Source: a virus
DNA length: 40,710 nt
Virus record (IMG/VR): IMGVR_UViG_3300028414_000021
Coordinates: 1-40,710 of that record
Strand: one strand, 5' to 3'
This document shows positions 1,142 to 40,710 of the stretch, piece by piece (position 1 is the stretch's first letter; each line of letters opens with the position of its first letter). The notes below the pieces were generated by a model. That model was not told where the DNA came from. It saw only the letters and a program-made list of their open reading frames with translations, and searched no databases. Both the position numbers and the translations under genes were made by a program.

Positions 1142-3106
1142 TTATTGCGTGAACCAGGTCGTAGACCTAGAAGTCGTAAATGATGTTGTTATGTCATCAT
1201 CTGTTAACCAAGTTGTAATAACCTCGGTATCTCTTGATGTTTCTTGCTGGGTTAAAGTATCGGTATCATATGTAGTTGTAGTCTGATTCGACGTTGGAAC
1301 CTCATATGAAGTAGCACCTGTATTCTGTAAGAAAGTAGTTGTAGTCGTTTTTGAAGTAGGATTACTAGTAGGATAATCAGTATCTCTAAACGACGTTGTT
1401 ATACCTGTTTCAGTTTGATATGTAGTAGTTTCCAATAAGGAGCTAACAGTAGTAGAAAAACTGGTATATGTCGTTGGATCAAACCTTGTTTCTTGAACTG
1501 GTGTAAGGTTAGTATATGTCGTTGGATCAAACCTTGTTTCTTGAACTGTTGTAAAACTAGTATATGTTGTTGGATCAAACCTTGTTTCTTGAACTGGTGT
1601 AAGGTTAGTATACTGCGTTGAACCTGGTGTAAGGTTAGTATACTGCGTTGTACCTGGGGTAAAGCTGGTATACTGCGTTGAAGTAACATTATATCCCTCA
1701 CCCTGGGTATTAACATAATAACCGGAATCATAGTATGTTTCAGTGGGCGTTAAATTAGTATTAATTGTGTTACCGATAACTGTATTTACATTATAAGATG
1801 TATTTCTAGAGCTAGGTGCTACGTATCCTCCAGTTGGATTAGCAGCGATAATCTCCTCAGTGGTATTACACGTTAAACTACAATCTAGACAAGATGCTGA
1901 TAAATAAGTAACTTGTGTATACTGAGGAAGGGTATAACCTGAATTATAATATACTGTAACACTAACAGGGTAATTAGCATATGACGTGGCGATTGTGGAA
2001 GTAACCTCATAGATCGCACAAGGATAACAGTTAGACTCAGGACTTGCGCAATATTCGGCTGCATCTATTTCTGGATAACAACCCCCAAACGGGGGAGCAC
2101 CTAGGCCGTTTCCCACGTAAGTGTTTGAAGATGTTGTGGTATATGTTGTTTGTGTAGAAATATATGTTGACACATAAAAGGTTGCTTGAGAATAAGGATA
2201 ATCAGTAAATACATTTCCAGTAGAATATGTATCGCCGTTGGGGGCCGGAGTACAAGATACAATAGAGCAGTTACTTGGTACCGTGTCTCCTGATGTACCG
2301 GCCGGCGATCCGTCTACATTATATAGGTAGCATCCGGATGCAGAATCGGGATATGTATATGATGTTGTTGTCGTTGTAAATGTAGTATAGAAATATCCAG
2401 CAACAGTCGTATTTTGTGAATATTCTGTGGGCTGATAAATATCCTGAGTAACGTAAGTAGTGCTAATTGTAGGATGACTAGTTGGTTGTAAATATTGAGT
2501 GGGATAGGTATAAAAATAAGTATAATTAGTTGGAGTTGGGGTATAACTAGTGTACACAGTTGCCGTTGGCGTATAACTAGTGTACACAGTTGCCGTTGGT
2601 GTAAAACTAGTAGATGTAGTAGGCACAGTATATTGTGTTGTACCAGGTGTAAAACTAGTAGATGTAGTAGGCACAGTATATTGTGTTGTGCCAGATGTAA
2701 AACTAGTAGATGTAGTAGGCACAGTATATTGTGTTGTGCCAGGACTTATAGTTGTAGAAATATCTGTGTTATAATTACCCTTAAACGTTTGATTACTAGT
2801 CGGGGAATATATTGTGGTTTCAGCAAACGCAGTTGGTACAACATTCGCAAAGTTAGTAATATAATTTGTTATAAAAGAGCTTGAGTATTCAGTATCAATA
2901 CCAGGATCAGTAAATAAGGTGTTATAGGTTGTAGTCGTTAAATTTGACGTAGGTGTAGGTGTATACCACTGTGTTATAAAAGTAGTAGGAGTTAGCGTAG
3001 GAGCTGAAGTATTAAAAGTTGTATTAGTCAGTCTAGATGTAAGAAAGCTAGTAACAGCTGACGTGTACTGCCCTTTTGGAGTACCTAACCAGAATCTACG
3101 TGACAT
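1142..3106 (-). CDS. Large Thr/Tyr/Ser-rich repeat tail-fibre protein
   Basis: 654 aa, extremely rich in Thr, Tyr, Ser, Pro and Asn. The N-terminus begins MSRRFWLGTPKGQY, which may be an attachment segment. Most of the protein is built of short beta-type repeats: a 16-aa unit with core TTQYTVPTTSTSFTP repeated three times (DNA period 48 nt, 2601-2744), a second 16-aa unit with core QETRFDPTTYT three times (period 48 nt from 1464), and 10-aa units such as SYTPTATVYT and QYTNLTPGST (period 30 nt). A central, less repetitive part (roughly residues 255-440) carries Cys pairs including CYPC, suggesting a disulfide- or metal-stabilised domain. The neighbours are a short fibre protein and an assembly chaperone. 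Likely a distal receptor-binding or decoration fibre; no database family recognised. Confidence 0.8.
   Translation of the reverse strand: MSRRFWLGTPKGQYTSAVTSFLTSRLTNTTFNTSAPTLTPTTFITQWYTPTPTSNLTTTTYNTLFTDPGIDTEYSSSFITNYITNFANVVPTAFAETTIYSPTSNQTFKGNYNTDISTTISPGTTQYTVPTTSTSFTSGTTQYTVPTTSTSFTPGTTQYTVPTTSTSFTPTATVYTSYTPTATVYTSYTPTPTNYTYFYTYPTQYLQPTSHPTISTTYVTQDIYQPTEYSQNTTVAGYFYTTFTTTTTSYTYPDSASGCYLYNVDGSPAGTSGDTVPSNCSIVSCTPAPNGDTYSTGNVFTDYPYSQATFYVSTYISTQTTYTTTSSNTYVGNGLGAPPFGGCYPEIDAAEYCASPESNCYPCAIYEVTSTIATSYANYPVSVTVYYNSGYTLPQYTQVTYLSASCLDCSLTCNTTEEIIAANPTGGYVAPSSRNTSYNVNTVIGNTINTNLTPTETYYDSGYYVNTQGEGYNVTSTQYTSFTPGTTQYTNLTPGSTQYTNLTPVQETRFDPTTYTSFTTVQETRFDPTTYTNLTPVQETRFDPTTYTSFSTTVSSLLETTTYQTETGITTSFRDTDYPTSNPTSKTTTTTFLQNTGATSYEVPTSNQTTTTYDTDTLTQQETSRDTEVITTWLTDDDITTSFTTSRSTTWFTQ
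1464..1607 (-). repeat. Second 48-nt tandem repeat x3 in fibre gene
   Basis: Units start at 1464, 1512 and 1560 and encode the QETRFDPTTYT-type 16-aa repeat. They are followed by 30-nt units (from about 1608, 1638 and 1668) encoding QYTNLTPG-type 10-aa repeats. Confidence 0.85.
2601..2744 (-). repeat. 48-nt tandem repeat x3 in fibre gene
   Basis: Three near-identical 48-nt units starting at 2601, 2649 and 2697, each encoding 16 aa in frame. Differences are one or two bases, indicating recent amplification or ongoing homogenisation. Confidence 0.9.
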
Positions 3107-30347: not shown

Positions 30348-30962
30348 TTAGTTCCATTTATAAAATCTATGATCGCCTATATCATCAATGTAAGCGAGTG
30401 ATGATGCCCAATCAGGTTTTACATAGCGTGCATGATAGTGTGTTGCACCTTTTGTAATGTCCTGATTAGTATACCAGAGAACAATAGCTTTCTCTGTTAT
30501 ATACTGTACATACTTATATGCCTTTCTATCTTTAGGTCTATCGGACTTACCGTCGCAATACCAAGAGAACTGGCATTGGTTAAGCAGTATCCTACCCAGT
30601 CTATCATACTTAGTTTGCTTAATAACCTCGCATATTGTAGAAGGATAACGACTATCTTGGGTTCTATTTAAAGTAACCATGGCAACTGCCATAATAGCAT
30701 CTTCGTTCTGATTCCTAGCTTCATAATAGCTATTTAAAACTAAGCATTCAAAGTCTTTCTCTACGAATATATCAGTAGCATAGACAGTTTCATAAGGTGT
30801 GTGTTTTTCTACTACCTCAGGAATTACAATTGGCTCAGCTTTTACAGGGGTTGAATAATCCCATCGAGCTACAACTGCTAAGAGTCCGATACACGTAACA
30901 AGACACAGTCCTTGTTGATTCGCCCGTTGGGTTCGCTTGTCTTTGTAGTTAATTTTTGCCAT
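30348..30962 (-). CDS. SleB-type cell wall hydrolase (endolysin), membrane-anchored
   Basis: 204 aa. Residues about 17-33 (QQGLCLVTCIGLLAVVAR) form one N-terminal membrane segment, possibly a signal-anchor. From residue 70 the SleB/Hydrolase_2 pattern is clear: LNSYYEARNQNEDAIMAVAMVTLNR (catalytic Glu likely E81), YPSTICEVI, CQFSWYCDGK and a final THYHARYVKPDWA with HRFYKW. These enzymes cleave peptidoglycan between MurNAc and GlcNAc. The first 85 bases, encoding the anchor, overlap the 3' end of the preceding gene in another frame; a GAGG lies 13 bases before the ATG. It probably serves host lysis, replacing the absent gp5 lysozyme domain or a gpe-type lysozyme. Confidence 0.82.
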   Translation of the reverse strand: MAKINYKDKRTQRANQQGLCLVTCIGLLAVVARWDYSTPVKAEPIVIPEVVEKHTPYETVYATDIFVEKDFECLVLNSYYEARNQNEDAIMAVAMVTLNRTQDSRYPSTICEVIKQTKYDRLGRILLNQCQFSWYCDGKSDRPKDRKAYKYVQYITEKAIVLWYTNQDITKGATHYHARYVKPDWASSLAYIDDIGDHRFYKWN

Positions 30963-33937: not shown

Positions 33938-33973
33938 GATAGGCAATAACTATCCCCCTAAAGAGAATTAACT

Positions 33974-35008
33974 ATGAAACGTTTATATCTCTTTGCTATG
34001 CTTTTGATGACTCCTATATTGTCTAACCCTGTATTGGCACAAGCAACTGGCACTTGTACTGCTGGAACCCAATACTGCGAAGGATCCACTGCGGAAACTG
34101 ATATCACGTCGACTTCAACATCGACCTCGACTGCAACTACCACAAATACTAACAACAATACAAATACCAACACTAGTACTGCTACCAATAATAATACAAA
34201 CACAAATACTAACAACAATACAAATACCAGTACTAGCACAAGTAGCAACACTAATGTTAATACTAACAATAACGTGATGAGTGGTGGCACTAGTAATACT
34301 AATGTGAATACTAATATCAATACCTCAAATAATACAAGCAACAATACAAGTAACAATACAAACAGTAATACCAATGTGAATACCAACACAAACACCAATA
34401 CAAATAGCAACACCAATGTTAATACTTCTACCAGTAACAATTCTAGTACTAGTAATAACACCAATGTGTCATCATCAACTAGTGACAATACAAACGTCAA
34501 CGTTTCTACATCTTCGTCATCTAATAATAACAACAGCGTTAGTGAGGTAACAACTGATAACACAAACAATAATGTAAACCAGAACATTAATCAATCACAA
34601 TCAACTCAAACCGTGACTCAGAAAATAGAGTCACCTCCGCCATCTGCTATTGCTCCTTCTATAGGTGCTTCATTCTCACAAGACTTGTGTACTACAGGTG
34701 TAGCAGGTGCTGTTCAAACTCAAATATTTGGTTTGTCGGCAGGCAAGTCGGTTACAGATACAAACTGTGAACGAATTAAACTTGCTAAGACAATATACGA
34801 TATGGGTATGAGAGTTGCTGCTGTATCTTTAATGTGTCAAGATGAGCGTGTATGGACTGCTATGAAGATGGCAGGAACTCCATGTCCTTACCAAGGTTTG
34901 ATTGGCGAAGAGGCGGGCGTTGCATGGGAAGAGAATCTTATAGATGTGCCTGGTGTAACCAAACGTAGTGTTAGGAAAATGACCTCCTCACCTAACATGC
35001 CTAATTAA
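33974..35008 (+). CDS. Secreted Asn/Thr-rich protein with conserved C-terminal domain
   Basis: 344 aa. A Sec signal peptide is evident: MKRLYLFAMLLMTPILSNP then VLA-QA (cleavage after about residue 23). Residues about 45-215 are almost pure Asn/Thr/Ser in NTN-type repeats, probably an extended, glycan-like or amyloid-like fibre. Residues about 225-344 form a compact domain with four or more Cys: FSQDLCTTGVAGAVQTQIFG, TNCERIKLAKTIYDMGMRVAAVSLMCQDERVW and AGTPCPYQG. The role is unknown; similar C-terminal domains appear in marine phage proteins by my recollection. It heads a late operon and its stop overlaps the next ATG (TAATG). Exported phage proteins of this size are uncommon. Confidence 0.8.
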   Translation: MKRLYLFAMLLMTPILSNPVLAQATGTCTAGTQYCEGSTAETDITSTSTSTSTATTTNTNNNTNTNTSTATNNNTNTNTNNNTNTSTSTSSNTNVNTNNNVMSGGTSNTNVNTNINTSNNTSNNTSNNTNSNTNVNTNTNTNTNSNTNVNTSTSNNSSTSNNTNVSSSTSDNTNVNVSTSSSSNNNNSVSEVTTDNTNNNVNQNINQSQSTQTVTQKIESPPPSAIAPSIGASFSQDLCTTGVAGAVQTQIFGLSAGKSVTDTNCERIKLAKTIYDMGMRVAAVSLMCQDERVWTAMKMAGTPCPYQGLIGEEAGVAWEENLIDVPGVTKRSVRKMTSSPNMPN

Positions 35009-38522: not shown

Positions 38523-38852
38523 TTATGGTTTCTTAGCAAATGCCTGAGCCCCAAAAAAGGCAGCAACAATACCAGCAACAGCAACAAAATATGTAGGTGC
38601 CATATCACCGAGAGTTGCCTGAGCTTGGTCTAATCCTGCAATGGATGCGACTACAACTGCAAAAGGATAAAGAAGCATACCACCTAAAGCAAACCATGCC
38701 ATCTTCCTTTGTGCATCCCGCATTGCATCTTGGTCTTCAAGCTCTTTACGCCTAAATTCCATGTACATATCTTGTTCTTTAGGGCTTACTTTACCATCAC
38801 CATTTGTATCGGCAGGATGATGACCAGATTTTTTTATTTCTGCTTCTGACAT
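38523..38852 (-). CDS. EF-hand membrane protein (possible holin-like)
   Basis: 109 aa. Residues 15-26 form a canonical EF-hand loop (DTNGDGKVSPKE: D15, N17, D19, K21 backbone, S23, E26), predicted to bind Ca2+. A charged helix follows, then two membrane spans (about 48-70 and 84-105). AGGA lies 8 bases upstream of the ATG. It is the gene after pqqA in the minus-strand cassette, but could also belong to the lysis set: small two-span phage proteins are often holins. Only one EF-hand is present, so a partner or dimer would be expected. No database family is claimed. Confidence 0.75.
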   Translation of the reverse strand: MSEAEIKKSGHHPADTNGDGKVSPKEQDMYMEFRRKELEDQDAMRDAQRKMAWFALGGMLLYPFAVVVASIAGLDQAQATLGDMAPTYFVAVAGIVAAFFGAQAFAKKP

Positions 38853-38881: not shown

Positions 38882-38953
38882 TTATCTAACACTAAAATAC
38901 ATAGTGATTTCAAATCCAAGTCTTATATTTTCATAAGCTGGTTTAGTCCACAT
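38882..38953 (-). CDS. pqqA: PqqA, pyrroloquinoline quinone precursor peptide
   Basis: 23 aa, with ATG at 38951-38953 and TAA at 38882-38884, and a strong AAGGGG site 7 bases upstream. It begins [13 protein letters not shown], followed by [10 protein letters not shown]. Known PqqA peptides have the same layout (WxKPA...LRxGxEVTxY), and the Glu-x3-Tyr pair, here E15 and Y19, is the substrate of the radical SAM enzyme PqqE, whose crosslinked residues become PQQ. The conserved length of 23-24 aa also fits. It starts 10 bp after the cytochrome c/PHM gene. None of pqqB-E is visible in the window, so the host would have to supply them. Alternative, less likely: a decoy or unrelated short peptide. 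Confidence 0.9.
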
Positions 38954-38963
38954 ATTAGTCCCC

Positions 38964-40208
38964 TTATAGGTTTTTCCAAGTAAATGCTCCAAAGAACATT
39001 TCATCTTCGCTCATCTGACCCCACGGTACGTCTCTGCTAGGATCGGGATTCATTTTATTCTCTGCTGAGTTGTCAAATGCTCCCTCTACAAACAGTCTTG
39101 TACCTACAGGTAAGAACTTAGGCTCTCTCCACGTGTATGATAGTTGCCAAGCATATTCATATCTTGGTACATCAATTAGTTCTTCTACAGTGCCGTCTGG
39201 ATAGAATGCAGTTGCTTTCATACTCTTGCCACGGAAGTGCATGTGTGGTAAGAATGTGTGCAGCATTACATCTTGCTTTAGAACTACTTCTGCTGTTTGT
39301 ACAAAGTTAGGATCAAATGCAGGGATAGTTGTCCAGTTGTTAGGGAAGATACAAGCACAGTCGCCTGCCATTCTCTCTTCTGGTACTACACCTTCATCGT
39401 GAAAGTACAAACCAATTCTTGCTTCGTCAGTTCTTGCTCTGCCGTCTGGTGTGTAGTGTAACTGTAAGTTTACTGTTGAACCTGCTCTTAACAAACCACC
39501 AGTGTTCTCGTCATAAAATTCTGGATCGCCTCCTGGTACATATGCACTCACACTAGCGTAGTTCATTTCTTCTTGTCCGCCACCTTGTGTGCCTAAGATG
39601 TTGCCATTACGCTCTCCCGGTACACTTACTGAGTTTAGCATGTGATGCATTACTGTAGGCTCTGAAGGCAAAAACTCTGAACCACGAAGCCATTTGTCTT
39701 CAGTTAGTCCTAAGTCTACACCAACATAACGATATGGAATCGCAGAAGGACCAGCAGGAATTTCTTGTGCTGGTACATAGACAATCATATCAGGCTCACC
39801 GTGTACCCACTCTGATGTTGAGTATACAGTTTCTGTTAGCGGATCTCTGTCACCTTCGACAGGAGCGCCTGCATCAATCCACTGTACAATAGTCTCCATT
39901 TCTGTATGACTGAGTGTGCGATGATTGATAATATCCTTTGCATATTTGCGATCAATCTGCCCGGGTGGCATTTCTAATGTTGTAACTGCTTCACGGATTG
40001 CAGGGGCGAATGCTTGCAACATTCTAAAGTCACTCATTGCCCACGGTGCAATACCACCTTCACGGTGGCAGCTTTGACATTGTTCTACAAAGATAGGGGC
40101 TACGTTCTCTGCGTAGTCGATCTTTACATCGTCATGCGCTTCTGCTCTAAGTCCAAGCATTAGCAATAGAACACCTAATGTTCCTGCCGCAGCGTTTATT
40201 TTATTCAT
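38964..40208 (-). CDS. Cytochrome c-PHM-like copper monooxygenase, periplasmic
   Basis: 414 aa. A signal peptide (residues 1-24, ending AEA) exports it. A cytochrome c domain follows: C44-Q-S-C47-H48 binds haem c and M80 (MPPG) is a likely axial ligand. Residues about 125-414 form a peptidylglycine alpha-hydroxylating monooxygenase (PHM)/DBH-type fold with all expected copper ligands: H188-H189 (HHML), H251 (HYT), H322-x-H324 (HMH) and M404 (SEDEM), with spacings close to rat PHM (107/108, 172, 242/244, 314). The enzyme class hydroxylates C-H bonds with O2 and an electron donor; the fused cytochrome could deliver electrons. Substrate unknown. GGGAGAAG lies 6 bases upstream of the ATG. Bacterial-type gene in phage context. 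Confidence 0.88.
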
Positions 40209-40359
40209 TTAAATCTTCTCCCATAATTGATAGTGTTACTAAATCATTTTGTAAAAGTTGGATCTCTTCAGTTAGTTCTTGGTATTCTTCCCAATCCCTA
40301 TCTATATCTAACCTATTGCGATTATCTATTAGCAAGCTCAACTCTTTCATTTCTTTCAT
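40201..40359 (-). CDS. Possible small coupling ORF, 52 aa
   Basis: ATG at 40357-40359, TAA at 40201-40203. It fills the 113-bp gap between the two PHM-like genes and overlaps both (38 bp with the upstream gene, 8 bp with the downstream one). The sequence is helical and acidic (DRDWEEYQELTEEIQLLQND). The ribosome binding site is weak (AGG). It may be a true small gene or a fortuitous frame. Confidence 0.4.
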   Translation of the reverse strand: MKEMKELSLLIDNRNRLDIDRDWEEYQELTEEIQLLQNDLVTLSIMGEDLNE

Positions 40360-40710
40360 CTTTTAGCCTATTATATCCTTCGTCATCTAGATGCGTAATA
40401 GCAAGCCACGCGTGCGTCATCTCATCGCCTGTTCTTGAGCCACCCATTACCCACATATCTGGATCTGGGTTATTTGGATTGTCTGATGTGTTATCGTACC
40501 ATTGCTTCAGAACAATCACTGCGCCTGCTGGTAAGAGTGGTGCTACATCTGGGTCATATAAATGACTGTGATGCCATGTTGCACTCCAATTACTTACTTG
40601 GCTAATCTGTTCTGTGCGTCCTGTCTCTGGATAGAATATTTCCAAACTTGCTGCGTTCATACGCAAGTGTCCATGTGGTTGAAAACTATCTAGTCTAACT
40701 GGATGATCAA
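40322..40710 (-). CDS. Second PHM-like copper protein, 5' end cut by window edge
   Basis: The frame is open to the right edge, so the N-terminal part is missing. The visible 128 residues start near DHPVRLDSFQPHGHLRM and carry H-G-H, then WHHSHLYDPDVAPLLPAGAVIVLKQWYDNT, NPNNPDPDMWVMGG and SRTGDEMTHAW. HGH and the Met of DEM correspond to the CuM-site ligands (HxH and Met) of PHM-type enzymes, and the order matches the C-terminal half of the neighbouring cytochrome c-PHM protein. It is a paralogue, not a fragment of the same gene, because both contain the same C-terminal motifs. Upstream copper site and signal peptide cannot be seen. Confidence 0.8.
   Translation of the reverse strand, partial: DHPVRLDSFQPHGHLRMNAASLEIFYPETGRTEQISQVSNWSATWHHSHLYDPDVAPLLPAGAVIVLKQWYDNTSDNPNNPDPDMWVMGGSRTGDEMTHAWLAITHLDDEGYNRLKDERNERVELANR

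Follow-up and report, generated by a model that had tools for sequence, protein, structure and literature searches.

What would a bacteriophage gain from a gene for the precursor of a bacterial cofactor? The question is raised by the window, as we call the whole stretch of DNA that was analysed, a viral record of 40,710 nucleotides. In what looked like an intergenic gap, the initial annotation had placed a 23-codon gene for PqqA, the precursor peptide of the cofactor PQQ. It had proposed that a T4-like phage supplies only this peptide and relies on the PqqBCDE proteins of its host. This interpretation is, as a whole, supported by our analysis. The main context of the gene was absent from it: directly upstream of pqqA lies a tandem pair of genes for copper-monooxygenase-like proteins.

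The gene is found exactly at the coordinates proposed, on the minus strand, which had been left unstated. It starts with ATG (38953-38951) and stops with TAA (38884-38882). The encoded peptide scores 41.2 bits against PF08042 (E 1.5e-10; cut-off 21.1) and 49.1 bits against TIGR02107 (E 3.4e-13; cut-off 20). It thus exceeds both curated cut-offs by far, and TIGR02107 is an equivalog model. The peptide contains W2, K4, P5, R11, G13, E15, T17 and Y19. In known PqqA peptides E15 and Y19 are the residues that become PQQ.

In TAAGGGGactaatATG a Shine-Dalgarno-like site lies 6 nt 5' of the pqqA start, and the gene for a 414-aa protein stops 10 nt before pqqA. The AAGGGG overlaps the stop codon of this upstream gene (TAAGGGG), and most relatives have AAGGAG at the same spot. 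The ORF is therefore that of a short peptide made by ribosomes; it has a start codon, a ribosome site and the E-x3-Y spacing of PqqA. Family-model scores, shuffles and relatives rule out a chance ORF; a PqqA DNA pattern has a single match in the window and none in 100 dinucleotide shuffles. Hence the identity, the correct length, the E15/Y19 pair and the ribosome site that had been read from the letters are all borne out, and at the level of sequence the minus-strand ORF is confirmed to encode PqqA. Its position and those of its neighbours are given in Table 1.

Table 1. Features in and around the pqqA locus of the window.
Feature	Position	Strand	Basis
pqqA, 23 codons	38882..38953	-	PF08042 and TIGR02107 scores; conserved in relatives
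Shine-Dalgarno-like AAGGGG	38960..38965	-	Sequence; 6 nt 5' of the pqqA ATG
Gene for 414-aa secreted protein	38964..40208	-	Alignment A1; Foldseek match to PHM/DBH
Gene for 431-aa paralogue, 3' end (leaves the window)	40322..40708	-	Whole in L052:8592-9887; Foldseek
52-aa ORF between, overlapping both copper-enzyme genes	40201..40359	-	ORF list; may be chance
109-aa gene downstream of pqqA	38523..38852	-	Membrane-protein-like, weak EF-hand-like segment

The genome that carries the gene is truly that of a phage. The window, an IMG/VR record of 40.7 kb, carries genes for a T4-type baseplate wedge, hub and tail tube and a gp32-like gene. The baseplate wedge protein has its nearest relatives in the phages Melnitz, HTVC008M and Mosig (~38%). 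Across all 40,710 bp, pqqA included, the window is 99.9% identical to a contig of 114,689 bp (G466), which carries many T4-like genes (function names judged by eye). The T4-like origin suggested by the initial annotation is therefore upheld.

Other parts of this phage genome show features of their own. A 654-aa protein rich in Thr, Ser and Tyr (1142-3106, minus strand) contains internal repeats, with self-similar stretches near 1457-1680 and 2528-2743. A 344-aa protein of low complexity, rich in Asn, Thr and Ser, is encoded at 33974-35008 (plus strand); the antisense Leu/Val-rich ORF opposite to it (33958-34587) is probably spurious. A probable lysis gene at 30348-30962 (minus strand) encodes a cell wall hydrolase (PF07486, SleB-like). 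On the longer contig a protein resembles, by eye, haem oxygenase (L260 7572-8129, that is G466:107572-108129).

How common is pqqA among phages? Two pattern-scan listings together with all other loci give at least 263 viral pqqA loci in at least 222 distinct contexts. At least 88 of these contexts are of the window type (RLGFE) and at least 130 of the methylophage type (RFGFE). The genes upstream of pqqA belong to at least 22 families in the window type and at least 68 in the methylophage type, a variety expected from repeated acquisition under selection. Some window-type loci come from podovirus-like phages, relatives of HTVC115P and HMO-2011, and there a capsid gene precedes pqqA. A PqqA reading frame is also present in every methylotroph-phage isolate that we met (Melnitz, Venkman, P19250A, MEP301, MEP401 and MEP402). 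The records of the Methylophilales phages (L086, L087, L090-L093) do not annotate this frame as pqqA; in Melnitz (L086 2998-3069) a hypothetical ORF is annotated over it on the opposite strand. Nor is pqqA mentioned in the papers on Melnitz, MEP301 and MEP402. Genes of 23 codons are easily missed by gene callers. As the isolate records lack the annotation and the isolate papers are silent, it is probable that a control of PQQ supply by phages has escaped notice.

As had been proposed, the phages carry the precursor only. We found no pqqBCDE in the 263 listed pqqA-bearing viral loci (2.39 Mb of contigs that are fragments), no PqqE in 7 records and, among 20 related records, none with a PQQ-dehydrogenase domain.

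Where does the gene come from? Complete pqqA-B-D-E-C operons are present in bacterial genomes from a gammaproteobacterial order, the one to which the MAG 'Gammaproteobacteria bacterium NP21' belongs. The operon PqqA of one such genome (G419) is identical to the window PqqA at 20 of 23 residues and has the same FSVR end. In two others the agreement with a phage peptide reaches 22/23: G729 matches the PqqA of phage locus L033, and G710 matches another phage variant. The bacterial variants thus differ in which phage variant they match. In addition, the 414-aa protein finds 24 matches in G729; the best, at 54%, is the highest identity that any chromosome-like contig of a bacterium reached. Similarity of both PqqA and the copper enzymes points to candidate hosts in this order. 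A methylotroph (OM43) host is not favoured for the window, since the window PqqA is of the RLGFE type, whereas OM43 phages and the genome G164, which has nine pqqA copies, have the RFGFE type.

The two genes upstream of pqqA encode predicted secreted proteins that combine a cytochrome c with a copper-monooxygenase-like domain of the PHM/dopamine beta-hydroxylase (DBH) fold. The 414-aa protein has a signal-peptide-like N-terminus, the c-type haem motif CQSCH and the copper-monooxygenase-like domain. Its paralogue, which is whole in a related contig, also has a signal-peptide-like N-terminus and a single CxxCH haem-c motif, CVVCH. In alignments, the copper-ligand positions are invariant in both families: H188 H189, H251, H322xH324 and M404 in the 414-aa family; H188 H189, H235, H315xH317 and M400 in the 431-aa family. 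From knowledge of PHM, we take the three His to be CuH and the HxH with the Met to be CuM.

The fold assignment comes from structure models of moderate confidence (pLDDT 61 for the 414-aa and 71 for the 431-aa protein). In Foldseek searches with these models the best 31 matches are all PHM or dopamine beta-hydroxylase, with best E values of 2e-9 (414-aa) and 5e-11 (431-aa) and TM scores of up to 0.58. The models show the two-domain PHM fold. A sequence-profile search of the PDB with the copper proteins gave no match, so the fold search was needed. No Pfam copper-monooxygenase family scores above its cut-off for either protein; hence we call them PHM-like and do not place them in the family. 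They resemble PHM and dopamine beta-hydroxylase in the predicted fold and in all copper-ligand positions. They differ in sequence (~11-16% identity in the fold alignment), in their N-terminal c-type haem motif and in being secreted proteins of phages and bacteria.

Among viruses, the pair is kept in dozens of IMG/VR contigs, and nearly all viral loci with enough flank have both genes. A 431-like protein is encoded in 269 viral stretches. No relative of the 414-aa protein was found among INPHARED phages, and a PHM-like fold was not found in a viral structure library, where the matches were low-TM noise. Among bacteria, some members of one gammaproteobacterial order have many copies per genome, and an AhpC/redoxin-like domain is added at the N-terminus of the three bacterial relatives that we examined. 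Conserved across dozens of marine viral contigs, the PHM-like pair (38964-40708, minus strand) is possibly more surprising than pqqA itself.

What, then, does the phage pqqA do? We consider it likely that it is a functional auxiliary metabolic gene that gives extra precursor to the PQQ pathway of the host. The carrier would be a T4-like phage, and its host a marine gammaproteobacterium with a PQQ synthesis of its own. One message probably serves for the translation of pqqA and of the two genes for secreted cytochrome-c/copper-monooxygenase-like proteins. In the cytoplasm of the infected cell, host PqqD would bind the phage PqqA, host PqqE would cross-link it at E15-Y19, and the remaining host pathway would mature the cross-linked peptide to PQQ. 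The added precursor would keep up or increase the PQQ that is available to the periplasmic quinoprotein dehydrogenases of the host, so that electrons and energy keep flowing during phage production. The phage's own periplasmic copper enzymes may act together with this supply. We infer that the phage PqqA is expressed, processed by cross-linking, limiting in dose and of benefit to the phage. For this reading we count the margins over the PqqA models, the synonymous variation, the recurrence, the carriage of the precursor alone and the identity to bacterial PqqA, all of which suggest a working gene.

Bacteria provide a precedent for dosing the precursor alone: Methylophilaceae have 3-12 copies of pqqA and usually one set of pqqBCDE (PMC4109929). 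In Acetobacter pasteurianus, overexpression of pqqAB gave 29% more PQQ (PMC7936290). For Methylovorus, PMC9851590 cites only a limited PQQ rise after overexpression of the whole pqqABCDE, which suggests that the precursor may not always be limiting.

Against the supply reading we count the distribution of pqqA at the site seen in the window. A search with the 414-aa protein found pqqA just downstream in 18 of 80 viral loci. With duplicates removed, pqqA follows the 414-type gene in 8 of 56 distinct loci and is missing from that site in the other 48. In two relatives without pqqA (L032 and L041) the 109-aa gene comes directly after the 414-aa gene; pqqA is therefore an optional element at this site.

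The same loci bear on a narrower version of the supply reading, and the confidence in the two overlaps. Here pqqA and the copper enzymes form one dedicated module: the PHM-like proteins would hydroxylate a periplasmic substrate, a PQQ dehydrogenase of the host would oxidise the product, and pqqA would supply the cofactor. Most pqqA-bearing loci of the 414 type fit this arrangement, with pqqA about 10-12 nt behind the 414-type gene. So does a second phage lineage (L289, L274 and L351) with the order 431-like gene, redoxin-cytochrome gene, copper-domain gene, pqqA, CopC-like gene (CopC and redoxin assigned by eye), and so does the bacterium G729 with its many copper-enzyme homologues and its pqq operon. 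However, most phages with the copper pair have no pqqA there, and pqqA is also common in phages without copper enzymes nearby, where it lies behind capsid or small late genes. Furthermore, the few cellular neighbourhoods that we inspected by eye showed no obvious PQQ dehydrogenase beside the copper enzymes. A dedicated module is thus a possibility to which we give somewhat less than even weight.

With the same reserve we suggest, tentatively, that marine gammaproteobacterial phages carry a periplasmic oxidation cassette. It would consist of the tandem cytochrome-c/PHM-type copper monooxygenases and pqqA, in one lineage also of the redoxin and the CopC-like protein. Alcohols or other intermediates would be made by the phage copper enzymes and oxidised by host dehydrogenases that run on the extra PQQ; the electrons would enter respiration during infection. 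If true, no PHM/DBH-type enzyme would have been recognised in a virus before these.

Could the peptide work against the host pathway instead? As a decoy it would occupy PqqD or PqqE and lower host PQQ. A phage could conceivably make a mimic of the substrate, and the peptide closely matches the bacterial substrates. Yet the reacting residues, which a decoy should tend to lose, are kept. E15 and Y19 are invariant in 14 distinct window-type and 100 distinct methylophage-type sequences, sets for which the search pattern fixed E and Y, and also in the 7 sequences obtained without the pattern. K4, Y7, R11, F14 and M18 are invariant in the window type although they were free in the search pattern, so that most of the recognition core does not vary. 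With phage peptides up to 22/23 identical to bacterial PqqA in addition, we regard a decoy as very unlikely.

Similarly, pqqA could be a recent passenger without function, acquired with neighbouring DNA. The gene is small and optional at its site, as such a passenger might be. In contrast, the nucleotide variation suggests purifying selection, and the synonymous-biased variation that the initial annotation expected of a real gene is found: pN/pS is 0.21 in 7 distinct sequences from relatives found without pqqA as bait. Lower values come from sets that include loci fetched with a pattern fixing several residues (0.12 in 14 distinct window-type sequences, 0.17 in another set). The ribosome site is conserved as well, and pqqA recurs in unrelated phages without a flanking pqqB. 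We therefore give the passenger hardly any weight and read phage pqqA as a host-derived metabolic gene that appears to be maintained by selection.

Finally, bacterial DNA misassembled into phage DNA or mistaken for it, as suggested by the bacterial INPHARED match 'Acinetobacter phage MD-2021a', is practically excluded, because the window matches the 114.7-kb T4-like contig at 99.9%, for which reason we reject contamination for the window, and pqqA is present in cultured phage isolates. The MD-2021a sequence (L088, CAKLQF020000010.1) holds a full pqqABCDE operon and a polyphosphate kinase and is bacterial DNA under a phage name.

How much of this is new? The window PqqA resembles bacterial PqqA (PF08042/TIGR02107) in its length, W-x-KP, R-x-G-x-E-x-T-x-Y and E15/Y19, with 20/23 residues shared with G419; it differs in being phage-borne, alone and without pqqBCDE. 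Nor is phage PqqA wholly new, although the initial annotation knew of no described case. A phage of Lake Baikal methylotrophs, VP_266, carries pqqA (Coutinho et al. 2020, PMC7678222), and a list of genes from viruses of reservoir sediment includes pqqA (PMC13188868). VP_266 is, like the window phage, a T4-like phage with pqqA, proposed to support PQQ enzymes of the host; it also encodes a methanol dehydrogenase and is assigned to Methylophilaceae (PMC7678222). In the window phage, by contrast, no PQQ-dehydrogenase domain was found, PqqA is of the gammaproteobacterial RLGFE type and copper-monooxygenase-like genes adjoin it. The cultured OM43/LD28 phages (the six isolates named above) share a short stand-alone pqqA; they differ in the RFGFEVTMYV type, in other gene neighbours and in having known methylotroph hosts. 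Three points appear new in the literature searched: that isolates and contigs so widely carry pqqA, that phages have a gammaproteobacterial type of it, and that it is linked to PHM-like copper enzymes; we found no paper there on an ascorbate-dependent monooxygenase as an auxiliary gene of phages.

Cyanophages carry copies of host metabolic genes, psbA and others, that are thought to sustain the energy supply of infection. Unlike these, pqqA encodes a cofactor precursor peptide and not an enzyme, and supplying a precursor is a strategy different from carrying an enzyme. Phages of methylotrophs have pqqA and so, by inference, do phages of marine gammaproteobacteria, which makes at least two host settings; the carriers include both T4-like and podovirus-like phages. 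For several carriers both phage and host are in culture, so that the supply idea can be put to a direct test. Besides pqqA, the PHM-like copper enzymes linked to it form another class of redox genes in phages, one that had gone unremarked. If pqqA works as proposed, viruses would influence the periplasmic oxidation of alcohols, methanol and sugars in the ocean through the precursor of a cofactor.
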